Source: Ovis canadensis (taxonomy: Eukaryota > Chordata > Mammalia > Artiodactyla > Bovidae). Taken from it: a stretch of 64,000 nt of DNA. The notes beneath the pieces were generated by a model. The model was not told where the DNA came from. It made no database searches and saw only the letters and a list, made by a program, of their open reading frames with translations. Of the stretch, positions 6,485 through 64,000 are shown in pieces. Position 1 is the stretch's first letter. The number at the start of each line of letters is the position of its first letter. Location: the NCBI RefSeq assembly GCF_042477335.2, contig NC_091247.1:225146001-225210000 (forward strand), read 5' to 3'. Position numbers and translations under genes: made by a program.

Positions 6485-7358
6485 AGGTTTCCAGGACATG
6501 TGTTAAAAACAAAGCAATTACCCGGTTAACATCAAAATATCCACACACAATAAATGCTGGGGAGGGTGTGGAGAGAAGGGAACTCTCCTACACTGCTGGT
6601 GGGGATGTAGATTGGCACAGCCCCTATGGAGAACAGTAGGGAGGTTCTAAAAAGAGCTACCATGTGACCCTGCAATCCCACTCCTGGGCATACATCCAGA
6701 GGAAAACATATTCTGAAAGGATACATGTACCCCAATCTTCACTGAAGCACTGTTTACAATAGCCAAGACATGGAAGCTACCTTAATGTCCATCGACAGAG
6801 GAATGGATAAAGAAGGGTGTGTGTGTGTGTGTGTGTGTGCGCACGCACGCACACACACACACGCGCACGTGCGCGCAATGGAATATTATTCAGCCATTAA
6901 AAAGAATGAAATAATGCCATTTGCAGCAACATGGATGGACTCAGAGAATGTCACACTGAGTGAAGCAAGGCAGACAGAGAAGGAGAAATATCACAGGATA
7001 TCCCTTAAAAGTGGAATATAAAAAGAAATGGTACCAATGAACTTACAAAACAGAAAGAGACTCACAAACTTAGAGAACAATTTTATGGTTGTTGGGGAGA
7101 AGGATGGGGGGCAGAGATAGTTGGAGAGTTTGGGATGGACGTGTATACACTGCTACATTTAAAACGGATAACAGCAAGGACCTACTGTATACAGAGGGAA
7201 CTCTGCTCTATGCTATGTGGCAGCCCGGATGGGAGGAGGGTTTGGAGAATGGATACCTGTGTGTATGGCTGAGTCCCTTTGCTGTTCACCTGAAACCACC
7301 GCAAACTATCACAGTTTGCTAACTGGCTATACCTCAATATAAAATAAAAAGCAAACAA
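6485..7358 (+). mobile_element. L1 3' end (ORF2 tail and 3'UTR)
   Basis: Plus-strand 3' part of an L1 element. It carries the usual ORF2 tail phrases, for example GGCATACATCCAGAGG, CAATAGCCAAGACATGGAAG, AATGGAATATTATTCAGCC and GCAACATGGATGGACTC. The ruminant L1 3' region follows, ending CCTCAATATAAAATAAAAAG. An expanded alternating purine-pyrimidine tract interrupts the ORF2 tail at 6817-6877. It is 5'-truncated and has no intact frame. Confidence 0.85.
6817..6877. repeat. (GT)n-(CA)n microsatellite, alternating purine-pyrimidine throughout
   Basis: About 12 GT units are followed directly by GCGCACGCACGC and a (CA)n/(CG) mix ending GCACGTGCGCGC. Every step alternates purine and pyrimidine for about 61 bases, and the two halves are roughly inverted complements. 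It sits inside the L1 tail. Confidence 0.9.
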
Positions 7359-14069: not shown

Positions 14070-14330
14070 GCAACTCAAGCGTCTCTGGGTAATGCCTGGC
14101 TGGCAGCAAGGGTCTCTGGGTAATGCCCGGGTGGCACCAAGGGTCTCTGGGTAATGCCCGGGTGGCAGCAGGGGTCTCTGGGTAATGGCTGGGTGCCAGC
14201 AAGGGTCTCTGGGTAATACCCTGGTGGCAGCAAGGGCCTCTGGGTAATGCCTGGGTGGCAGCAAGGGTCTCTGGGTCATGTAGTCCTGGAAAATGCAAGG
14301 GTCTCTGGGTAACAGCAAGTGTCTATAGGT
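14070..14330. repeat. Minisatellite, 31-bp unit, about eight copies
   Basis: The core GTCTCTGGGTAATGCC recurs starting at 14,081, 14,112, 14,143, 14,174, 14,205, 14,236 (one substitution) and 14,267, always 31 bases apart, with a diverged copy at 14,301. Degenerate half-units flank it. The period is not a multiple of three, so the open minus frames over it are a repeat artefact. Confidence 0.93.
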
Positions 14331-34000: not shown

Positions 34001-37000
34001 CATCTCTTTCCTTACGAGTGTCTGGAAGAAAGACACTCTACACAGACAAACACAGACATTCTACAAAGACAGACTTTTGTTCTAGGGCTTTTTTTTTTCA
34101 TTGTTTAGGTGTTTACATGTTGTTTAGTTGCAAAGTCGTGTCTGCTGCTTTGGGACCCCAAGGACTGTAGCCCACCAGGCTCCTCTGTGCATGGGATATT
34201 CCAGGCAAGAATACTGGAGTGGGTTGCCAAATGGTTACAAATGCTTAGATGGATTTGGAATGACTGGAAGGGCAATAGGAGTTCCAGGGCAAGGCGGCCG
34301 ACAGCTGGGGGAGGGCGTGGTCAGAAGTCCCTTAGAGCAGGTGGGCCGTGCCGGGCCCCAGGAGTGGGATGGAGAAGGGAAGGACGCTCAGGTAATTGTG
34401 ACCATACAGGTGAGGCCTTGGAGTCGGTTCCGGGCATCTGAGGGGCGTTCCTGCTGGAGGGTGTGAAGACTGAAAGAGGAGAGAGGGGGACTGGTTAACA
34501 AAAGGCCTTAGAGGACTTCGCGGGCGGTGCAGTGGTTATGAATCTACACTTGAGGGCTCAGCTTTGATGCCTCGCTGGGGAAGTTCTGCATGCTGCAGGG
34601 TGTGGCCAAAAAACAAGCCAACTAAAGGCCTCAGAAAGTGGCAGGCAGCCTGGAGGCAGCCTGGTGTGTGACAGGAGTACTCTAGAAACTCAGTCATCTC
34701 TGCCACAGAGAGGCTGTGTGACCTTGGGCAAGGCACTTACCCTCTCTGAGCCTCGGCTGTCTTATGTGCAGAAAGAAAAGGCATTCGTTCGTTTATTCAT
34801 TCGCGCAGCCAGTTGGTGAGCCGCCAGGAGGTGCCAGCCCCTGTGCATGCCTTCCTGGGGGGCGGCTGTGAAGACTAGCCAAGGTCACGTCCTGAGAGAC
34901 CAGGCACCATGCTGTCACTTCGGCGCTCACAGACGAGGCTCTTTCTGCGACCGTGTAAGAGGGTTAAATGCTCTACACTGTGAGATGCTAGCATTAGAGG
35001 AGGGAAATTCTGGCCCCATGGAGCCTGCTGAGAGCTGTCGCCCAGGCCCAGGCGTGGACCCGAGGCCTGAACCAGGGCATCAGCCAAGGGGATGGGAATG
35101 TTCGGAGTTTTGTTTTTGATCCAGCTGGAATTTGTTCTCAAGCAAGGAAGGGTTGTTTGTTTGTTAAGTTGCTCAGTTGAGTCCAACTCTTCATGATCTC
35201 ATGGACTGTAGCCCGCCAGGCTCCTCTGTCCTTGGGATTTCCCAGGCAAGAATACCAGAGTAGGTTGCTCTTTCCTCCTCCAGAGGATCTTCCCAACCCA
35301 GGGATCGAACCCAGGTCTCCTGCATTGGCAGGTGGGTTCTTTACTGCTGAGACACTGGGGAAGCCCATGGAGGGGTAGGGATCCATTTTCATTTTCCCCA
35401 GAGGAACACCAGTGGGTCCACCACCAGTTATCCAGGGCTGTCCCTACCACGGGGCTCACTCTCTGTGTCTTGTCTTCTGGGTGCCCATTCTTGGTGGGGG
35501 AGGCGGAGCTTACAGCTCAATCCCAATCAGCAGGGTCCTGGAGACCCTGATGGAGAGATCTTCCTCCAGGGAGAGTCTCCTGGCTGGCCCCCCAGGCCTG
35601 AGTCAGGCTGCTGTCCCAGCTGTCTGCTTCCGAGAGCACAGTTTGGGGTTTTTAAGTTTCTGTAGTAGAGCTACTCCTGCCAGTTTATTAACTTTTAGAC
35701 TATTTATTTACTTTTTTATTTACTTGGCTGCGTGAGTTCTTAGCTGTGGCACTAGCAGTCCTCACTGTGTCTTGGGGGCTCAGTCATCGGGGTGCGTGGG
35801 CCGAGTTGCTCTGCTTAGAGTCTTAGTTCCCCACCCAGGGTTGCATCAGCATCACCTGCATTGCAAGGCGGATTCTTAACCGCTGGACCACAGGGAAGTC
35901 GGTTTGTTTGTTTCTGAGGGTGTTTGGAAATGCCCTTCCAGCCTCGGGGACTGTGCCCACAGCTGCTCTGCAGGGGCAGCCATGTGGTCATCACAGGGCC
36001 CAAGGGAGAGGGCCACTCACAGATGGGAAGACTCCCCTTGGGGCAGAAATTAAATCACCAAAGAGACAAATTCTAGGATGGGCCTGTCCCTTTTTATGTC
36101 CCATCGATCTCTTTGTCCACATCAAGTCACACGTTCTAATTCCCGTTTCTTTCTAATACGTTTTGATAGCAGATCTAGTCCACTCCCCTTGTTCTTTCAC
36201 ACATTTTCTTGCTTTTTCTTGCATATTCTCACTTCTGAGTGAAGTTTAGAATCATTGATTTCTGTTAAAAATTATATTGGGATGAATTTGTAGAATACTT
36301 TGGGAATTTAATTATGAAAGTTATGAATGGGGCTCTCCCAACTTATAATAAAGGCACCACCTCAGTTCAGTGAGGGGCAGGCAGTGGGTTATCTAGATGG
36401 AAAAGTATGACCCCAGGTCCCTGCCTCACACAATATACAAAAAATTAATTCACCGTGGATCATAGATCAAATATGAAGGGTGAAACAGTAATGTTCTAGA
36501 AGAAAAATTAGGGAATGGCTTCATGACCTTGAGGTAGACAAATATGTTTTAAGTAGACAAATATGTTTTAAGTAGACAAATACACACACACACACCATGA
36601 ATCAATGAAAATGTTGATAGATACAGCTTTATTAAAATTTAGAATTTCTATTCATCAAAATAGAATAGTAAAAAAAAAAAAAAAAAAGAGGAACTTCCCT
36701 GGTGGCTAAGACTTTGTTCCACCAATGCAGGGGCCCTGGGTTTGATGCCTGGTCAGGGAACTAGATCCCACATGCTGCAACTAAGACCCAATGCAGTCAA
36801 ATAAATAAATACGAATAAATATTTTTTTAAAAAACCAGAATATTAATGAAAAAGGGGACTTCCCTTGTGGTCCAGTGGCTAAGACTCTGCGCCCCCAATG
36901 CAGGGGGCCCAGGTTCGATCCCTGGTCAGGGAACTACAGCCCACATGCCACAACTAAGACACGACAGAGCCGAATAAATAAATAAATAGACAGGCTTGCA

Positions 37001-40000: not shown

Positions 40001-42701
40001 GGGGCCTCGTGGCAAGAATTCACTGGGGTTTTTTGTCTCTGCAGCCGGAGCACTGCTTTGATTTCGTCAGCAGGGAGCTGTTCGTGCACTACATCAAAAA
40101 TCTGCAGGCCCACGTCCTGCTCATCAAGTAAGTTGGAACCAAGCACCCCAGACAGACCCGAGTTTCAGGAATGCCCAGGTCTCCTGGTATGAGACCACTC
40201 TGCCATCTTTCCTGGGCAGCCCCCGACCGGTCGCTGGTGTGTGGAAAGCAGGTGAGGGGAGGGGGATGGGGAGAGGGCGCTGAGGGTGGGCAGGGATGGC
40301 ACCACATCTTTCCACGGGTGTCTGTATCTGGAGGGCGGGGAACACTCAGGTATAGAGGGACCGGCAGTCAGTACCGCCTGGCCCCGTCCTCCAGCCATGC
40401 CAGGCCCCGCGCATCCCCAGGCCAGCCCTGGGCCTCCATCTGCTGTCCCCCTCCGCCATCCTCAGCCGCCTCTGGGCCCCACAGCCCATTGAACATCCTT
40501 CGGGGGGGCTCAGGTGCCACCCTGCTCCACTGCATTCAGCCTGGACATGGGACCTGGCAGGAACTGTGACTTCCAGGGACACGTCTGCCGAGCACAGGGG
40601 TTCAGAAGGCAGGGACTCATGGGGGGCAAATCCCAACCCCAGGGAGGGATGCTGCACACCCTCTGGGACATCTAGACTTTACAGGTGAGATAACAGGCGC
40701 TGCTGAGGGTGTGGAGGAGCTAGAAACTAGAACCCTGCCAGGCTGCTGTGCAACTGTAAAACGGTGCAGCCACTTTGGGAAGGTCTGGCAATTTTTCAAG
40801 CCCTAAAATCACTGTGTGACCCAGCAGTTCCACTCCTCGGTGTAATCCCAGCATCTGTCCACATCACAGTGAGTGCTGGTGGCTCACAGCGGTGTCCTTC
40901 AGAACAGAATGAACTGAGTGTGGGAGGCAACTCCAATGTCCGTCAGCTCACCAACAAGCAAATAGGCTCCATCCACACGATGAGATGGAATGACGCGGTC
41001 ACACTACAACAGGCAGGAACCTTGAAAACATAGACTCGTTGAAAGAAGCCAGTCGGGAAAGCCCGCGTACTGTGTGATTGCATTCACTTGCAAGTCCACA
41101 TCCATCATGTGCTCAGTCGTGTCCAACTCTGCGACCCCATGGACTGTAGCCCTCCAGGCTCCCGTCCATGGGGTTTCCCAGGCGAGAATACTGGAGTGGG
41201 CTGCCGTTTCCTCTTCCAGGGGATCTTCCCGACGCAGGAACTGGACCTCCTGCATTGTAGGATCCCCTGTGGCTCAGCTGAGGTGATAAATAGGATCAAA
41301 AATTGACTGTAGTGATGGTTGCTCACCTCTGAATGTACCAAAATCCATGGAACTGTACATTTTAAATGGGTGGAGTTAACTCAATAAAGCTGTTCAAAAA
41401 AGCACACTCAGAAGCCTGTTCAGATCCTGGCTCCACCATTCAGTGGCTGTAACCCTGGGAAGATCCCAAGATGAAACCTGTGCAGGCCTTGCTGAGCTGC
41501 GAGGGCCAGTGGGGACTGAATGACTCAGCCCTGAACTAAACCTGGGCTTGAAGGGCCCAGCGGTGGGAAGGTTAGAGGGATTCTCAGGCTTGGGCCGGTT
41601 TCAGAGCCTAGAGCCCAGGGCAGAGGCAGGGCATGCAGGGAGTGGTCCCAGGTGAACCTTCCTTCTCATCTTACAGAGCAACCGAAGGATATTATGCCCT
41701 AAGAAGAGAGAACGACGGCAACAGGGAGCCCATGATGTTCGTGAGCAGCTCACTTAAGTCTGTCCTGAAAGAGGTGTGTGCCCAGGGTTCAGGGCAGCTG
41801 GGGTCAGCAGGGGCTGCCAGGCTGCCCTGAGCTCCACCTGTCCATCTCTTTTCTTGCGCTGGGACCCCTGCTCTGGGCCCAGGTCTAACAGGTAACCCCA
41901 GGAGCTACCAGGCCTCATGTTCCACTGTGGTCCCTGGAATCACATATAAATCAGCACAGAAAGCAGGCTTTTCATTGGCAATCTCCTGGTTTTATTGTCC
42001 TCCTGTACTCCTGGGCCATGCCCAACTGAGTGGCTCTACAATTTCCTGGGGTCTCAAATGGGAACAGATGACCAGGCCCACCAGTGGGTGCCAGGCTCCA
42101 AGTTGGAGGGCTGGCACGTGTGCTGTGACTTTGATGTTTGCCTGGGCCCCTGGGAGCACCTGGCATTTTGGGAGCATCACCTAGTACAGACAGCCGACCC
42201 TGGGGCCTGAGCAGACAGCTGGGCATCATCACAACGGGGACGCCCCTGTGTGCCGGGCAATGTTCAGTCCTTCCTGCTCTGTGGGCCTTTCTCCCAGGCA
42301 AGATGGAAAAGCTGCTTGTTCCTTCTTCAAGTGAATATTATCTGATGACCAGACCCAGGAGCAGCCCCTGGACTCTCAAGCTCTACCACCTCAGCTCAGA
42401 ATGGCCTAAAACCCGAGGGCTGGGCACTTCCCTCCCAGGAAGGCCTTTCCCACTGGCTCTGAGCCAGGCCCGTCTGCCCCCTCCCTGACTGACTAGGGCC
42501 TGCAGAGCTGTGGACACGTGGAACTGCTGGGAGGCGGCCTTCTACTGGGTCACCTCATCCCATGTTCCCTTCCCTCCCCAGAGGTTCCAGTACGTGGAAG
42601 TCCCAGGCAATCACTACATCCACATGAACCAACCCCAGCAGGTGGCTGGTGTCATCAGCTCCTTTTTACAGAACAAGGAAGGAACCCCAGCCCCCCTGTA
42701 G
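22043..42701 (+). CDS. SERHL2: SERHL2, serine hydrolase-like alpha/beta-hydrolase, 309 residues, 12 coding exons
   Basis: Coding exons: 22043-22046, 22756-22905, 23018-23131, 23471-23512, 23912-23931, 24340-24414, 26035-26144, 26549-26628, 33209-33243, 40045-40127, 41677-41773, 42582-42701 (TAG). All junctions are GT-AG and the frame stays open (930 nt). The product is an alpha/beta-hydrolase: HGWLD near residue 33 supplies the oxyanion-hole region, GHSFGG carries the nucleophile Ser102, and VPGNHYIHM carries the probable catalytic His281. The start follows the short mouse form (M-G-L...): exon 1 gives only ATGG before a strong donor. A downstream ATG at 22,086 with donor near 22,114 could give a longer N-terminus. 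Family members are linked to peroxisomes and perinuclear vesicles and to muscle stretch; the natural substrate is unsettled to my knowledge. The last three residues APL are not a standard PTS1. RRP7A lies downstream, convergent. Confidence 0.95.
22495..22625. mobile_element. MIR-like fragment in SERHL2 intron 1 (probable)
   Basis: GTTTACTCCAGTTTTACAAG and TAACTTGCTCCAGGTCGCATGG resemble part of the mammalian MIR repeat. Short and diverged. Confidence 0.45.
24886..24996 (+). mobile_element. MIR in SERHL2 intron 6
   Basis: The MIR core is clear: GAGTCCTGGCTCTGCCATTT, GTGTGACTCTGGGCAGGTCAC, CTCTCTGGGCCTCAGTTTCC and CTGTAAAATGAGGAGG. Confidence 0.85.
24998..25194. mobile_element. hAT-like DNA transposon remnant in SERHL2 intron 6
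   Basis: CAGGGGTCCGCAGCCTCTGGG on the left and GGAAGATTGGGGTCCCCGG on the right are inverted-terminal-repeat-like ends. Inside, TTGTCTTCCACGAAACTGG resembles a mammalian Charlie-type element (MER1 group, from memory). Confidence 0.6.
26390..26437. repeat. CA-rich simple repeat in SERHL2 intron 7
   Basis: An imperfect (CA)n interrupted by G and T, starting ACCCACACACACACAGAC. Confidence 0.85.
26678..26960 (-). mobile_element. MIR-like repeat split by a Bov-tA SINE, SERHL2 intron 8
   Basis: The parts 26,678-26,776 (CTCTGGACCAGGCGTGATCC, CTAAGCGCTTCGC) and 26,894-26,960 (AGGAGAAATGGAGACTCAG) read like a MIR complement. A SINE lies between them. Confidence 0.5.
26777..26893 (-). mobile_element. 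Bov-tA SINE fragment
   Basis: Reverse SINE body with GTTGCTTCAGTCATGTCTG and CAGGCAAGAATATTGGAGTG; the tRNA-like head is missing. Confidence 0.85.
27632..27764 (-). mobile_element. CHR-type SINE in SERHL2 intron 8
   Basis: A poly-T start (A-tail complement), GGCCACATGGTGGGGTATG, then AATAGAACCTGGGGCCC and the head complement CCACCGGACCACCGGGGAAG. Confidence 0.85.
28345..28560. mobile_element. Old interspersed repeat, family not determined
   Basis: TTCCTAGGGCTGCCTATACAA, GATATTTATTCTCACAGTTTG and AGAAGCCAAGATCAGAGTGT resemble a widespread old mammalian repeat that I cannot assign with confidence. The rest of 27,765-29,090 shows nothing recognisable. Confidence 0.35.
29091..29268 (-). mobile_element. 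CHR-type SINE in SERHL2 intron 8
   Basis: Reverse orientation: GTTTGGCTGTGCCGGTCTTAG, TGAGGATCGAACCTGGGCCC and the head complement GCCGCTGGACCATCAGGGAG. Confidence 0.8.
29500..29640 (-). mobile_element. ART2A-type SINE unit, first half of a dimer
   Basis: Starts after a (TGC)n run: CTAAGTCGCTTCAGTCGTGTCC, then CAGGCAAGAACACTGGAGTG, ending TTGCCATTTCCTTCTCC. It has no tRNA-like head and is followed directly by a second unit. Confidence 0.88.
29641..29770 (-). mobile_element. ART2A-type SINE unit, second half of a dimer
   Basis: CTAAGTCGCTTCAGTCATGTC, ACAAGAATACTGGAGTGG and again TTGCCATTTCCTTCTCC at the end. Head-to-tail with the preceding unit, as in the BOVA2 family. Confidence 0.88.
30285..30400. 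mobile_element. MIR-like fragment (probable)
   Basis: TTGTTGAGGGAATTAAATGAGG followed by GCACAAAGCCCTGCTC resembles the MIR 3' part. L2-like patches may follow at 30,490-30,640. Nothing else is recognised in 29,771-31,050. Confidence 0.45.
31051..31292 (+). mobile_element. CHR-type SINE, long form
   Basis: Head GGACTGCCCTGGTTGGCCAG, B-box region ACGGGTTCCATCCC, body with GAGCCCATGAGCCTGCGCTC, end GAAGACCCAGCGCAGGCAAG. Confidence 0.8.
31667..32380 (-). pseudogene. CCDC34: Processed pseudogene (retrocopy), probably of CCDC34, antisense in SERHL2 intron 8
   Basis: On the minus strand this looks like a spliced mRNA 3' part. It has a coding stretch rich in Lys/Glu (32,335-32,260, AAAGAAAG codons), a C-terminal segment with FYNPIPWKP and LSGKKAKRP (32,200-32,110), then after a one-base shift a tail reading SNLCLGTL. 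A 3'UTR follows, with AATAAA (complement near 31,712-31,717) and an A-tail (T-run 31,667-31,680). The frame needs at least two shifts, so it is not translatable as it stands. The C-terminal phrases match my memory of CCDC34, a coiled-coil protein; this identity is not certain. No introns and an A-tail next to a poly(A) signal indicate LINE-mediated retrotransposition. The copy is 5'-truncated. I did not find clear target duplications. Confidence 0.6.
32518..32731 (-). mobile_element. Bov-tA-type SINE
   Basis: Reverse copy with CTAGTCGCTCAGTCCTGTCAG, CAGGCAAGAATACTGAAGTG, the B-box complement GGGATCGAACCCGGG and the head complement CATCTGAGCCACACAGG. Confidence 0.88.
33290..33985 (-). mobile_element. 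Old L1 3'-UTR remnant split by a SINE, SERHL2 intron 9
   Basis: TGCATTCACGATGTTGTACAG, ATATAAGTGGGATCACACAA, GTCCGGCTTCTTTCACGTAG and TTATAGCATGTGTCGGAATTTC are the complement of an old mammalian L1 3' region. After the SINE, ATATGGATATACCATTCATCC continues it. Confidence 0.6.
33658..33930 (+). mobile_element. Bov-tA-type SINE with an internal duplication
   Basis: Head GGCCTCCCTGGTGGCTCAG, B-box region ACGGATTCGATCCCTGG. The body block (TTTTTGCTTGGGAA to TTGGTGGGCTACAGTCCATGG) occurs twice, near 33,755-33,815 and 33,830-33,890. The end carries AACAACAACAA. Confidence 0.8.
34119..34230 (-). mobile_element. Bov-tA/ART2A SINE fragment
   Basis: TTTAGTTGCAAAGTCGTGTC and CAGGCAAGAATACTGGAGTG; no tRNA-like head. 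Confidence 0.82.
34512..34622 (+). mobile_element. CHR-type SINE, diverged
   Basis: GGACTTCGCGGGCGGTGCAG head, B-box region CAGCTTTGATGCCTCGC and the end GTGTGGCCAAAAAAC. Confidence 0.65.
34650..34850 (+). mobile_element. MIR followed by an L2-like patch
   Basis: GAGGCTGTGTGACCTTGGGC, AAGGCACTTACCCTCTCTGAG and CCTCGGCTGTCTTATGTGCAG are a MIR core. TTCGTTTATTCATTCGCGC after it resembles L2. Confidence 0.7.
35163..35368 (-). mobile_element. Bov-tA-type SINE
   Basis: GTTGCTCAGTTGAGTCCAAC, CCAGGCAAGAATACCAGAG, the B-box complement GGGATCGAACCCAGG and the head complement GAGACACTGGGGAAGCCC. A (GTTT)n run at 35,153-35,165 abuts its tail side. Confidence 0.85.
35705..35902 (-). mobile_element. CHR-type SINE, long form
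   Basis: TTACTTGGCTGCGTGAGTTC, GGGCTCAGTCATCGGGGTGC and the head complement AACCGCTGGACCACAGGGAA. Confidence 0.78.
36534..36594. repeat. 19-base tandem repeat running into a (CA)n
   Basis: GTAGACAAATATGTTTTAA begins at 36,534 and 36,553, and a partial third copy begins at 36,572, running into ACACACACACAC. Confidence 0.9.
36690..36825 (+). mobile_element. CHR-type SINE
   Basis: GAACTTCCCTGGTGGCTAAG head, B-box region GGGTTTGATGCCTGGTC, AACTAAGACCCAATGCAG and an (AAAT)n tail. Inserted beside an A-run at 36,671-36,687. Confidence 0.83.
36856..36990 (+). mobile_element. CHR-type SINE
   Basis: GGACTTCCCTTGTGGTCCAG head, B-box region AGGTTCGATCCCTGGTC, GAACTACAGCCCACATGCC and an (AAAT)n tail. 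Confidence 0.86.
37811..38020 (-). mobile_element. Bov-tA-type SINE
   Basis: GTTGAGTTGCTAAGTCGTC, CAGGCAAGAATACTGGAGTG, GGGATCAAACCCACTG and the head complement TGAGCCACCTGGGAAGCCC. Confidence 0.88.
38356..38748 (+). mobile_element. BovB 3' end
   Basis: A 5'-truncated BovB tail: GTGTTGGAGGAGACTCTTGAG, CACTGGAAAAGACTCTGATG, GGTCGCAAAGTGTCGGACAC and the end TGAACTGACTGAACTGAG. Non-coding remnant. Confidence 0.9.
38810..39022 (-). mobile_element. Bov-tA-type SINE
   Basis: TTTAGTCGCTAAGTCGTGTCC, CAGGCATGAATACTGGAGTG, GGGATGGAACCCAC and the head complement CTGAGCCACCTGGGAAGCC. It lies about 60 bases after the BovB tail. Confidence 0.88.
39425..39700. mobile_element. hAT-like DNA transposon remnant (probable)
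   Basis: GCAGTCCAATAGAAGTATG, AAGAGAAACAGGTGAAGTC, TCATACTAAGTCTTTAAAAT and a CACGTATGGTTACCGTG-type end resemble a mammalian Charlie-group element. Confidence 0.5.
40685..41400 (+). mobile_element. Old L1 3' remnant split by a Bov-tA SINE, SERHL2 intron 10
   Basis: GTGAGATAACAGGCGCTGCTG, AACGGTGCAGCCACTTTGG, CCAGCAGTTCCACTCCTCGG and AACTCCAATGTCCGTCAGC are ORF2-tail-like. After the SINE it resumes with AATTGACTGTAGTGATGGTTG and an AATAAA-like end. Confidence 0.7.
41107..41282 (-). mobile_element. Bov-tA-type SINE
   Basis: GTGCTCAGTCGTGTCCAACTC, CAGGCGAGAATACTGGAGTG and a degenerate B-box complement near 41,235, ending CCTGTGGCTCAGC. Confidence 0.82.
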
Positions 42702-43400: not shown

Positions 43401-46400
43401 TCAGTAGGGTCGGAACTTGCGCTGGGCCCGCATCAGCTCGATTCTCTGCTTGTCCTCCTCGAACTTCTTGCGCAGCTGCGCGATATCTGGGGCGAGGGGG
43501 CAGGAGGGGAAACAGGGCCGGGGTCAGACGGCAGGCCGGGCGGGAGCTATGCCCCGTGGCCCCACTCGAGAGGACGGCAGCACCTCCCGTCAGCCACCAC
43601 TGCCCCGGTTGGTTGGCGCTCAGCACGGCCTCCCCCATTGCCTCTGTGCTAGGAAACGGTGCAGATGCTGCCAGGAAATGGAACTGGGCCACAACCCAGT
43701 CAGAGGATGCAGGCTGAAGTGGAGATAACATGCCTGAGGTTTCAGACAGAAACTTTACCAGGTCAATGGGACTTCCCTGGTGGCCCAAGGATTAAGACTC
43801 CACCTTGCAATGCTGGGGACTCAGATGCCACACGCAGCGGGGCCACTCAGCCCTCATGCCACAACTACCCGAGCCCAGGCACCTCAACTAGAGAGGGACC
43901 CACCCATCATGGTTAAGAGCCTGCTCACTACAATTAAGACCCAACAAAGCCAAAACAAACAAACAAACAAACAAACAAACAAACACTACCTCTGTTATCC
44001 CCTCCACCTCCAACACACACCCCGAGGTGAAGGAAGAAGGCTTTGGGGGTGCTGGGAGATCCCCGGGACCCCTCTCCCAGCCTAACAGACCAGGGAACTC
44101 CACGCAGCTGGGGCTGGCAGAGCGGCCACAAGACCACGGCCCGGGCACCCCGGCAGGGGGGTGAAGGACAGGGCCCTGGGGCGCCTTACGCTCCATCTTG
44201 GTCTCGCGGTGCTGCCAGGCGTAGAAGTTGAGCAGCTCCTTGCGGGCGCGCTTCCGCCTCTCCCGCTCCAGCACCCGCAGGCTGGCCGCCTCCGTCCTCG
44301 GGAGCACTGGTCGGCGGCCCCGGCGGGTCACCTTCACCCAGCCCTCCTCGTCGGGGACGCCTTCCTCCTCCTTGGCCTTGGCCTCCTCCTGTAGGTTACA
44401 GGGCCCGTGATGGGCAGGCGCCTGGGACCCACCGTGTGGCCCCAGGAGCCCCTCGCCGCCTCCTCTCCGCTCTCCCTCCCACGCCTGGCACCACCCCACC
44501 GCCTCGGCCGCTCCCTCCGCGCCCAGCACCGTGTGCCCTCACGCTGCTCCCTTCCAGCCCTGATCGTCTGCCCCGACGAGAGACCATTTCCCTCGAGAGG
44601 GGCGCTTCCAGCTGGATGTTACCAGCTGGGAGGCCCAGCCAGCCGCCGCCCGTGCGGAAGCCCCACCTCTGCTATCTTCCGGTCGTAGGTCTCCATGAAG
44701 GCGTCCACCTCGACCCTCAGAGCCTCGGGGTCCGGCACCGAGTCCGTGTAGTCTCGGATCCACTCTGAGGGGGAAGAGGGCGAAGGAGACGGGGATTCCT
44801 AGGCCTGACTCTCAGGGGCCCCCCAGGACCTGCAGCGGGGCGGGATCTCCTCGCCCAGGCCGCCGGGATGCACACCCTGAGGGCCAGGCGACACGGGCAG
44901 ACGCGGCCCCCAAAGCTGCCCTCCCCACCCGGGGCCGCGGTACTGACTGAGGACGCCGCTCCTCACAGGGTGACTCTCAGTGGAGACCAGCAGGGGGCCC
45001 TTCAGGGCCAAGGCGGCCGACATGCCGCCTGGCTTCTGGAACACCACGTAGGCCACCTGGAAGCCCTGGAGGAGAGAGGTCAGTGGCAGGAGCCTTCCCC
45101 AGGGGCGTCTCACCCCAGGGCCCCCCACCCGCCCTCAGCCTGACTGCCGCGGGACCAGGGGAGAAGGGCTGTACTAACCCAGGGGTGGGGTGCCCACACT
45201 CCTAGCTACACAACTTCTGCTAAGAGTGACCCGATCCAGCGTCTTCACCAGGGAGCGGTGGACCCTGGGGCCTGTTTCACTTGCGGGAGGGACTCAGGGG
45301 AGGGCGTGCTCTCCCGGGGCCAGGAGTGGACGGACAGACGGGGCGGGGGGCGCCCGCAAAGTCCCCTCAACAGGAGGAGGTGTGGGCTCCCAGACACAGA
45401 GAAGGGAGACCAGGGCCACCAAGCCTAAGGGAGAATCAACTTCCGCGGGGGGAAGCCAGCGGTGGGGGTGCTAGGGGAGGCCCCTCGGGCAGGGAGCAGA
45501 GATGTCTTTGAGCTTCCCCCCGCAGGACGATGGAAAGAGCTGGACAGGGAGGCTCCAGGATGTGGCAAATTCGGGTGGAGGCCGCTCAGCTGACAGGCCT
45601 CCTAGACCACAGGTCAGGACGGGCCTGACCACAGGGAACACCCTAATTGCCGCGGCCTCCCCTGATGCCACGTTCCCCTCACAGGCCGGGGACACCGCTC
45701 GGCCCTGCGCACGCCCTCACTGCTGCGGCCCGGTCCTGCAGGCTTACGGGAACTGGTTTGGGGTTAAAGAACTTCGACCGGGGCTCCTTTGGGCTCTCAG
45801 CAAGCTCTGGCTTCTCCTGTAACTTCACCGACTGGACGGACCCGCAGGGGGAGAGGAGGCGGGACAAGCACTCCTGCCAGGGCAGAGAGAAGCGCAGGGT
45901 GAGCCTCCCGCCACACCGGAGCCCCAGAGTCCAGCCTGCAGGGCGGGCACAGAGGGCCTGGGCAGGCACAGAGGGCCTGGGCACGCCACCCCCTCCTCAA
46001 CACCGAGGTCACAACCCCAGCCCCCCACGGCCCAAGGGGGCCACCTTTTTTGACTTTGTGTTCAAAGCTGTGGGTAAAAGGGGACTCCAGAAGGAGGAGA
46101 CAGAGGGGAGACGGAATTCAGGTATAATTTTTTGGCTTTATGACCTAACCCTGCTGGAAGCATGTGCCCAGGGTATGCTCCGTCTGTTCCGGAAAGGGAC
46201 TGCTCCCTTTGAAAGGCCACCTGGCTGAAAGATCTCTTTTCCCCTGTCAATGTCTCTGAGGGATCTCCAAAGGAGGAGTGGGTTCTCAACTTTTCTTTTC
46301 CCACTATTACAAGAATGCATGCATGCTAAGTCACTTCAGTCATGTCTGACTCTTTGCGACTCCGTGGATGGTAGCCCTCCAGTCTCCTCTGTCCATGGGA

Positions 46401-61400: not shown

Positions 61401-63071
61401 TCAAGGATAACCAGGAAATTGGTCCACATATTCAGTGCAGTGACTAAAACCGAGTCTCTGGATGCCTGAAGACCAAATTAAGGCCTGGGTACCCACTCGC
61501 CTCCTGTATGTGATCTGGTTGCACACACCGAGCCGAGCAGTGCAGAGCTCCCTGACGTTCCCAGATATACTGCTTTCTTTCCTTCTCTGCATGGCAGAAC
61601 ATCCATCAGACTTTCCCTCCACGCAGGCGGCACCTGGTGGAGCTTTCAGGAAAGGTTGTTTATTCTTGCTAACACATCAACCAATGGAATCCAGATTCAA
61701 GAATGGGGCCAGAGCTGATGACCACAGAAGGAAGGGAACTGGCAGAATGTCCTTCCCTAAAGGAAATAAAATGTGACTCTGTCCTGTGGGATCACTTACA
61801 TTTCCCCTGAAGTCTCCAAATCCAGCAACTGGGAACTAAAGCCTGCAGTTCACTGTCTGTCAGATCTTGAACAAGTCTGCAGACATGCTAAGCCTCAGTA
61901 TTTATAAAAACCAGGGGCTGGATTAGTTCCAGTTCTGATAATCTTAGGACCCAAATAAGGAAATATTTCTGAATTGAAAGATCCTACTCTCCACCACATC
62001 TCCCATGCACCTGATCAGAGACACACAGAGTTTAAGAAGAATGTAAGATCACATACCATGTGGTGGAGAAAGCTGCCTGAGGCTGCAAATTTCATCTGTT
62101 TAGTAGGAATGGGAGCTATAACATCGTCGTCATCATCCAGGTCATATAAATTCTGAAAATAAAGAAATACACGCTAAAGTAGCATGCAGGCTCTCAGCAC
62201 ACATTTGGAGTAAGGACAGCAGGAGATGAGAGCTGAATTAATTAAGCGAGGTGTAGGCAGAAATGCGTACACCTGAAGTAGAATGGAGTGCCTGGGCAAA
62301 CTGGCCTGGGTGACTGGGGCTCAGTTCTGGCAGGCTCCCTGCCCGTAAGAGCCGAATGCAAATGCTGTGAAATTTCAGGTACATCAGAAGTACCTTTCTA
62401 CAGGTGGGCAATATCTATTACAGATTCCTAAAATGCCTGTTTATACCTTTTGGCTTAGAAAGTCTGTGCCGGGCAATCTGGTCTATAGAAATAAACTCAA
62501 ACTGTAGAAAGAGCTTTATTCTCCAAGATGTTCATAGAAGCATGTCTAACAGTGAAAATTATAGGAAAATGGTTGATATTAACTAAATGTCTACTCAATG
62601 GATCAAGCAGTTATTAAAATGTTTACAGTAAATGTGAACCACAGAAAAATGCTTGAGTTATAAAGTGAAAACAGAACAATATGAAACTGGATAATAACAT
62701 ACACAACTACAGCTATGCATTAAATAATCTCTCTCACATATACACACACACAAACAAGAAAAACACAAGAAGAATTCAGGGCAGAGCTTCAACAGGGGCT
62801 CACTATCGAGAGCCATAGCATAAGAACTACCCCCATCCCCCCCCAACCTTTCTGTTTTGCTAATTTTCTATAGTAAGCACACACTACTTTTACTTTAAAA
62901 AAATAAAAAGATTTTCAACTTGCCTCTCTGCTTCTATGCATTTAAGAAATTTCTTCTTAAAACTCATAAACTGCAATAAGAGTCAATCTCCAACTCTTCA
63001 AATCGGAACCCTGGGCCAGGCATCAGTTAATCCACTTGGAAGATCACATCAAAACACACACTTGTGTGCAG

Positions 63072-63135
<64 letters not shown>

Positions 63136-64000
63136 CACCTGTTTGGCCTGGTGGTTATTGACGACATTGATCCTCATTCCAGCAGGGTGAGCATGAATTG
63201 GTGCCATGGCCTTCTGCTGTGGAACCTAGAAACACCCAGTGGTCATAATTCATCCCACTTGGCCTACATGCGTTCTCTACAAGTAGGGGATAAATGAACT
63301 TTAATATGGTGGGCATTCAGTTTTGGTCTGTGGTAAAAGGTCCTACAGAGTGCCTCATTTGCAAAGCAGGAAAGCGACAGGAAGACTCATCATCCCAGAG
63401 ATCATGTAACAATGCACCTGCAGGGCTCAATGAATCTGGCTTAATAAATGTTCACTGCTTCAGCAGTTCCTATTACCAAAGTTGCTGTGAAGATTAAATG
63501 ATTCTGTTTCTATTCCCTTTGGGGGCAGTGGCTCTGCAGGTGGCCAGGACTCTGCACTAAGAGCCAGGTATGACAAGGCTTCTATCCTGATGCTTCCACT
63601 GACCAGCTGTGTGACTGCACGAAGATTCACATCTTTGAGACTTGGATTCTTCTTTTATAAACTGTGGCAATAACTGGGGTTGCATGAGGAATAGATACTC
63701 AGCATCTGCACATAGCACTAGCTCAACTAGTCTGTCCTCTTCTCTCTTCCTTCTACCACTATTTCACCTGCAGAGTCACTTAATTTCTCTGGACAATCCC
63801 CACCACTACCCCACCCATTTTCTTTTACATGAAACTGAGATGATATCTTGCCTCCACATATGGTTACTCTTCAAACAGTTGGGGGGACTGTCATTTTGCT
63901 TAAACACACCTGGTCTCTGCCTGATTCCACAGTTGTTACTGGTTTCGAGGAGTTTTTTGGCAGGAGTCTCAACCTACCTGGATGGTTTTAGTGAGCTTCA
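55489..64000 (-). CDS. POLDIP3: POLDIP3 (SKAR/PDIP46), exons 2 (end) to 9, 5' end beyond the window
   Basis: Exons on minus: 64000-63978 (end of exon 2, LKLTKTIQ), 63225-63139, 62152-62057, 60268-60089, 59502-59425, 57903-57774, 56704-56638, 55666-55489 (TGA at 55491-55489). All junctions are GT-AG and the 839 nt stay in frame. The acidic run DLDDDDD lies in exon 4. The RRM covers exons 6-8: MTVNNL as RNP2-like and AEVVFV as RNP1-like. The last exon has RLSDSPS, which holds the two serines phosphorylated by S6K1 in human, and ends TEFKIKL. The protein binds DNA polymerase delta p50, S6K1 and the exon-junction/TREX machinery, and raises translation of spliced mRNA; it is nuclear. Exon 3 is a known cassette exon, controlled by TDP-43 in human. 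Confidence 0.97.
57440..57620 (+). mobile_element. Ruminant L1 3'-UTR fragment, POLDIP3 intron 6
   Basis: AACAAGGATCTACTGCATAGC, CAGGGAACTATTCTCAG, CACTGTGCTGTACATCTGAAAC and ATTGTAAACCAACCACAC, antisense to the gene. AT-rich sequence precedes it. Confidence 0.75.
58697..58838 (-). mobile_element. CHR-type SINE, POLDIP3 intron 6
   Basis: TTTTATTATTATTATC tail complement, TACGTGGGATCTTAGTTCTCC, GGGATTGAACCCAGGCCCC and the head complement CTAACCACTGGGCACCAGGG. Same sense as POLDIP3. Confidence 0.83.
59690..60020. mobile_element. L2-like and MIR-like remnants, POLDIP3 intron 5
   Basis: CTTTTCAGGCCTGAACCTCTGC, AAATGGCACTTTCTCTTTAAAG and GAGGGCAGGGTCTAC resemble L2. TTTGCTCATCTGTAAAACAGG and CAATGAGATGCTC resemble MIR. 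Confidence 0.45.
61070..61235 (+). mobile_element. MIR, POLDIP3 intron 4
   Basis: GTACAGTGGTTAAAACATGG, ATCCTAATCTACTACTTACAAG, TTTATTTAACCTCTCTGTG and CAACAGGGGTAGTAACAGTAC form a near-complete MIR. Confidence 0.8.
63072..63138. repeat. (TC)12-(CA)18 microsatellite touching the POLDIP3 exon 3 donor
   Basis: The plus strand has (TC)12 at about 63,072-63,095 and (CA)18 at 63,097-63,132. In the POLDIP3 transcript (minus) the intron starts GTGGA and then runs (GU)18 from about position +6, followed by (AG)12. A feature of intron 3. Confidence 0.95.
63575..63695 (+). mobile_element. MIR-like fragment, POLDIP3 intron 2
   Basis: TCCACTGACCAGCTGTGTGAC, TTTGAGACTTGGATTCTTC and TTTATAAACTGTGGCAATAAC resemble MIR. 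Confidence 0.65.

Follow-up and report, generated by a model that had tools for sequence, protein, structure and literature searches.

The window analysed here, a 64,000-nt stretch of the Ovis canadensis genome, closes at its right-hand end inside a minus-strand gene. Exons 2 (last 23 nt) to 9 of this gene, placed by reading frame and splice signals, join into a single open frame that ends in a stop, and the frame is kept when exon 3 is left out. The joined product carries an RRM (RRM_1, PF00076, E 1.2e-10), and the solved-structure chains that it matched, eight of eight, were ALY, THO subunit 4 or REF2 proteins (in one case a fusion protein), as expected for SKAR/POLDIP3. At the nucleotide level, exon 4 agreed with human POLDIP3 primers (PMC6749094, PMC6885686) in 24 of 26 and in 18 of 22 bases; of a human POLDIP3 primer for exon 2 (PMC6885686), 15 bases fall inside the window and 14 of them matched. 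The agreement with POLDIP3 by name rests on these primers, in exons 2 and 4, which flank exon 3. Thus open frame, RRM and primer fit agree with the initial annotation, which had named the gene POLDIP3, while frame and flanking-exon primers bear out its naming of the exon under study as exon 3, in phase and of 29 codons. Along the minus strand, the window edge cuts exon 2, leaving its 3' end (63,978-64,000; donor CAG|GTAGGT); intron 2 (752 nt; 63,226-63,977), exon 3 (87 nt; 63,225-63,139), intron 3 (986 nt) and exon 4 (96 nt; 62,057-62,152) follow. Elsewhere in the window, a minus-strand open frame at 43,888-44,538, the first 130 residues of which match PF12923, the C-terminal domain of RRP7, at E 1.2e-14, is probably RRP7A; an RRP7 frame at ~44 kb agrees with the POLDIP3-RRP7A neighbourhood. 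A plus-strand open frame at 42,489-42,701, which had no Pfam match at E 0.01, resembles the SERHL2 C-terminus.

Exon 3 is in phase 0 on both sides and ends in CAG, followed on the minus strand by the donor GTGGAG (63,138-63,133; donor G at 63,138). Directly after the donor stand 18 perfect, unbroken UG units ((UG)18; +7 to +42; 63,132-63,097) and then an AG run of 25 nt or 12.5 units (+43 to +67; 63,096-63,072). When counted as GTGT...G from +6, the UG run is 37 nt long. Both arrays were recovered by TRF at 100% match, and the coordinates of the initial annotation proved correct. Further into intron 3, on the same strand, lie a short UG-rich patch, GTGTGTGTTTTGATGTGAT (+78 to +96; 63,061-63,043), and a second, impure UG cluster formed by an 11-nt UG run and then GAGAGAGA (+384 to +411; 62,755-62,728), which may lie far enough away for TDP-43 to act as an enhancer. 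As a separate observation, the order of motifs in this second cluster matches that of the donor tract. UG-repeat hexamers number 44 in intron 3, of which 12 lie beyond the tract, as against one in intron 2 (at 63,909) and none in exon 3.

The exon 3 frame stays open through the whole tract (reading CVCVCV, then RERERE) to a stop that ends at 63,049 (63,225-63,049, minus strand); an in-frame donor within the tract, if used, would add Val-Cys repeats.

On its two strands the window carries 10 unbroken GT/TG runs that are 10 nt or longer; that at exon 3 is the longest (37 nt), and only one other run, on the plus strand at 6,817-6,839, reaches 23 nt. With two runs of at least 23 nt per 128,000 strand-positions of the window, a given donor would have such a run starting no more than 10 nt from it with a probability of ~1.6e-4, a rough and post hoc estimate. 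The chance of such a run from dinucleotide frequencies, 9e-22 per site, says merely that the tract is a microsatellite. Genome-wide, ~20,000 human GU tracts of at least 12 repeats have been counted, mostly intronic and near splice sites (PMC12697283, a preprint), and thus a donor-adjacent tract is not in a rare kind of place. We rejected an origin of the flanking sequence in one of the window's repeat families, as 62,000-64,000 had no second copy there (E 1e-5, low-complexity filter on).

The splice sites of exon 3 are unusual in two ways: i) its acceptor is the weakest of the seven, with nine pyrimidines among the 16 bases from -20 to -5 and a longest pyrimidine run of 4; ii) its donor has the lowest matrix score of the seven, at 5.17 bits against 5.76 to 10.48, with the donors of exons 6 and 8 close to it (5.76 and 5.86 bits). 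The donor is non-consensus from +4 to +6, and bulging of G+4 yields CAG|GUG-AGU-G. The computed U1 pairing energies were -7.1 kcal/mol for the ungapped register, -7.3 for the bulged register to +6 and -9.2 for the bulged register to +8; by computed energies only, the best register is thus the one with a single bulged base, which beats the unbulged one, and the tract's first UG (+7 and +8) accounts for ~1.9 kcal/mol of the computed pairing. Compared with five other donors (exon 8 left out), exon 3 at -9.2 kcal/mol exceeds those of exons 4 (-6.1), 6 (-6.9) and 7 (-9.1). By best U1 energy, then, the exon 3 donor is not weak: its low matrix score goes together with strong pairing because a bulged register is invisible to the matrix. 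Donor recognition through a bulge register is an accepted mechanism and has been linked to the choice of alternative donors (PMC9311317). Since the best pairing includes the first UG of the tract, U1 and TDP-43 would, by the computed pairing, contest the same bases.

Two further candidates at the donor were set aside. Donors within the tract were rejected as main sites: its 18 GU sites (+6 to +40) scored 0.35 to 3.33 bits against 5.17 for the true donor, and their U1 energies (-3.6 to -4.7 kcal/mol) were also below that of the true donor (-9.2). By a crude hydrogen-bond count, most of these sites equal or exceed the true donor (12 to 16 vs 15). A CCACC/GGUGG hairpin hiding the donor was dropped, its pairing probability ranging from 0.01 to 0.99 over five folded lengths. 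In ordinary folding, pairing of the donor showed no clear trend over 0 to 24 repeats (0.61 to 0.79) and fell to 0.30 at 30, values that we do not trust.

In human cells, loss of TDP-43 causes skipping of POLDIP3 exon 3, as the initial annotation had stated in agreement with PMC3416794 and PMC6749094, and inclusion needs RRM1 (PMC3416794); skipping on TDP-43 loss is also reported in mouse cells (PMC8983780). Raised TDP-43 likewise drives exclusion of exon 3 in human cells (PMC6885686). By frame and primer fit, the POLDIP3 (SKAR) exon 3 of human and mouse is the same exon of the same gene as the one studied here. In human, POLDIP3 was classed, together with STAG2, as having a non-canonical TDP-43 motif, while CFTR, MADD and TNIK were classed as UGn, and binding to an intronic POLDIP3 probe was demonstrated (PMC8599232); the nature of the human site is taken here from that paper. 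The present sequence bears a pure (UG)18 at the donor. As the human motif is described as non-canonical, not UGn, (UG)18 is probably not the known TDP-43 site. Human exon 3 thus seems to respond to TDP-43, in both directions, with no pure UG tract, and the conserved dependence of the exon on TDP-43 probably has a basis other than a pure (GU)n tract, although "non-canonical" could possibly denote an impure UG-rich stretch at the same place. A degenerate pattern covering part of exon 3 (HPAGMRINVVN plus the next two bases) had no match in the genome-contig and viral-contig sets, which are non-mammalian, so that the search is uninformative on conservation. Among the titles listed from a partial library, none dealt with POLDIP3 splicing in ruminants or with a GU repeat beside exon 3 of the gene.

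The UG tract of CFTR exon 9 sits at the acceptor, unlike that of POLDIP3 exon 3 here, which sits at the donor. In the CFTR case a (UG)mUn tract near a splice site is bound by TDP-43 and the exon is repressed (PMC5446763); length polymorphism of the CFTR tract appears in the reference list of PMC13174678. TDP-43-repressed cryptic exons of the NUP188 type have a UG-rich stretch 3' of the exon near the splice site (PMC6749094), but they are cryptic and silenced, whereas POLDIP3 exon 3 is coding and needs TDP-43. More generally, cryptic exons repressed by TDP-43 are enriched in UG motifs, both inside the exon and up to 100 nt from it (PMC5446763), and a review gives the rule that TDP-43 represses when bound near splice sites and can enhance when bound further off (PMC13343711). 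In a motif map, enrichment of the TDP-43 motif was reported for silenced exons only and lay at the 3' splice site; the region from +10 to +40 past the donor was among those tested, and the part of the source consulted reports no TDP-43 enrichment there (PMC4054596). Thus a tract at +7 points to repression under the position rule, while PMC4054596, to the extent drawn upon here, gives repression from a donor-side tract no direct support and leaves the sign undecided. On this analysis the predicted effect of the tract on exon 3 is probably negative or mixed, and a dual sign has a precedent, since an excess of TDP-43 also excludes the human exon (PMC6885686).

Starting from the observed anatomy, splice-site scores and computed energies, we tentatively favour, at less than even confidence, a reading in which the tract modifies exon 3 locally, probably by repression, on top of an older, non-canonical TDP-43 control. 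The (UG)18(AG)12.5 microsatellite adjoining the donor of a weak cassette exon would serve, in the nuclear transcript, as a high-affinity landing strip for TDP-43, holding in the lattice model three to four molecules at saturation. As this strip starts within the best, bulged pairing of U1, TDP-43 bound to the first repeats would be in competition with U1, with lower inclusion of exon 3 as the result. Meanwhile the conserved non-canonical TDP-43 input would keep promoting inclusion, as it does in human and mouse; in that case the tract would overlay the older control and not itself be the switch. We infer in this way the binding, the competition and the sign, and with them any effect of length. 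Because strong repression would have been selected against, the effect of the tract may also be nil. As a modifier of exon 3 the tract is a plausible, testable and modest proposal.

The tract may instead be a neutral microsatellite, which TDP-43 may bind with no measurable effect because a conserved site sets inclusion; we hold this possible and somewhat less probable, and it appears to rank close behind the local modifier. The great number of GU tracts near human splice sites (PMC12697283), the ascription of human control to a non-canonical motif (PMC8599232) and the post hoc nature of the chance estimate for the tract position all favour it, but the best computed U1 pairing extends into the tract, and the adjoining exon has a weak acceptor and an atypical donor, a setting in which small changes would be expected to be visible. 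The direction implied by the initial annotation, which stated no sign, was that of a ruminant enhancer: TDP-43 bound just downstream would raise inclusion, and a longer tract would raise it more. Such an enhancer would be in keeping with the promotion of exon 3 inclusion by TDP-43 in human and mouse (PMC3416794, PMC8983780) and with the greater likelihood of TARDBP binding at longer (GT)n (PMC13174678); moreover, the excess of UG hexamers in intron 3 over intron 2 (44 vs 1) could be read as enhancement under the rule that distant binding enhances. We nevertheless consider it unlikely, given that near-site binding represses under the same rule (PMC13343711), that the human motif is non-canonical (PMC8599232) and that +7 would be too near the donor for easy co-occupancy by U1 and TDP-43.

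Two other explanations are less probable still. One is structural: (GU)18 would fold into a pUG quadruplex that hides the donor at low TDP-43, and TDP-43 would open it, so that its loss leads to skipping. The reading gives loss-of-TDP-43 skipping the correct sign, and tracts of at least 12 GU repeats do fold, with TDP-43 binding preventing the fold (PMC12697283, a preprint); against it, the human exon depends on TDP-43 apparently without a UGn tract (PMC8599232), and ordinary folding of the donor is unstable, the CCACC/GGUGG pairing varying with context over the range given above. We regard it as improbable. The least probable of all is that the compound repeat is read by another GU- or GA-binding factor, such as CELF, MBNL or, on the AG run, an SR protein. 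The 25-nt AG run directly after the UG tract would suit such a factor, and EIF4G2 is also listed as GT-binding (PMC13174678), but the affinity of TDP-43 for GU runs is exceptional (PMC12697283).

The initial annotation had further suggested that the length of the microsatellite could tune exon 3 inclusion. For human tracts generally, TDP-43 binding rises with (GT)n length (PMC13174678, a preprint), and TDP-43 binds GU repeats with a picomolar KD, the run being treated as a lattice (PMC12697283, a preprint). The first of these studies concerns spliceSTRs, length-variable repeats near exons for which (GT)n length correlates with TARDBP binding; its associations come from human cortex, whereas the present data are one haplotype of one tract, and POLDIP3 does not occur in its main text (PMC13174678). 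We modelled the cover of the first (donor-side) unit on a finite, non-cooperative lattice. With a six-unit footprint at c/KD 0.1, cover stayed at 0.06 to 0.07 from 10 to 30 units; at c/KD 1000 it was 0.98 at n=18, 0.75 at n=19, 0.60 at n=20, 0.43 at n=22 and 0.95 at n=24. With a four-unit footprint, cover peaked at n=12, 16, 20 and 24, and n=18 fell in a trough (0.66). Overhang onto the AG run blurred the wave: at c/KD 1000 and a penalty of 0.3, cover was 0.89 at n=16 and 0.76 at n=18. The number of TDP-43 molecules bound increases with length in this model. As cover of the donor-side unit oscillates, a simple binding model does not predict a monotone length dial there. A ruler, in which exon 3 inclusion would be periodic with allele length and n=18 would be a repression maximum, is highly improbable: it assumes six GU units per TDP-43 near saturation, in which case the donor-side units would nearly always be covered at multiples of six and would often be free at other lengths. 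On position alone, length tuning of exon 3 by the tract is plausible.

TDP-43 is the ALS protein. If alleles vary in (GU)n at this donor, the effect of TDP-43 occupancy would be measurable on a native exon in healthy animals, and a (GU)n allele series would put the position rule to the test on an exon whose inclusion TDP-43 otherwise favours. If the local-modifier reading is true, the repeat would have to be typed before exon 3 serves as a marker of TDP-43 in ruminants.

The window holds further repeats. One interspersed element has 21 matching stretches in the window, itself counted; its translations resemble those of the ruminant Bov-A SINE, which supports a ruminant source without pointing to cattle in particular. 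A minisatellite with a 31-bp unit (6.6 copies, 87% match) lies at 14,076-14,280, and a perfect 19-bp unit repeated 2.6 times at 36,534-36,595 directly abuts a minus-strand GT run of 14 nt.
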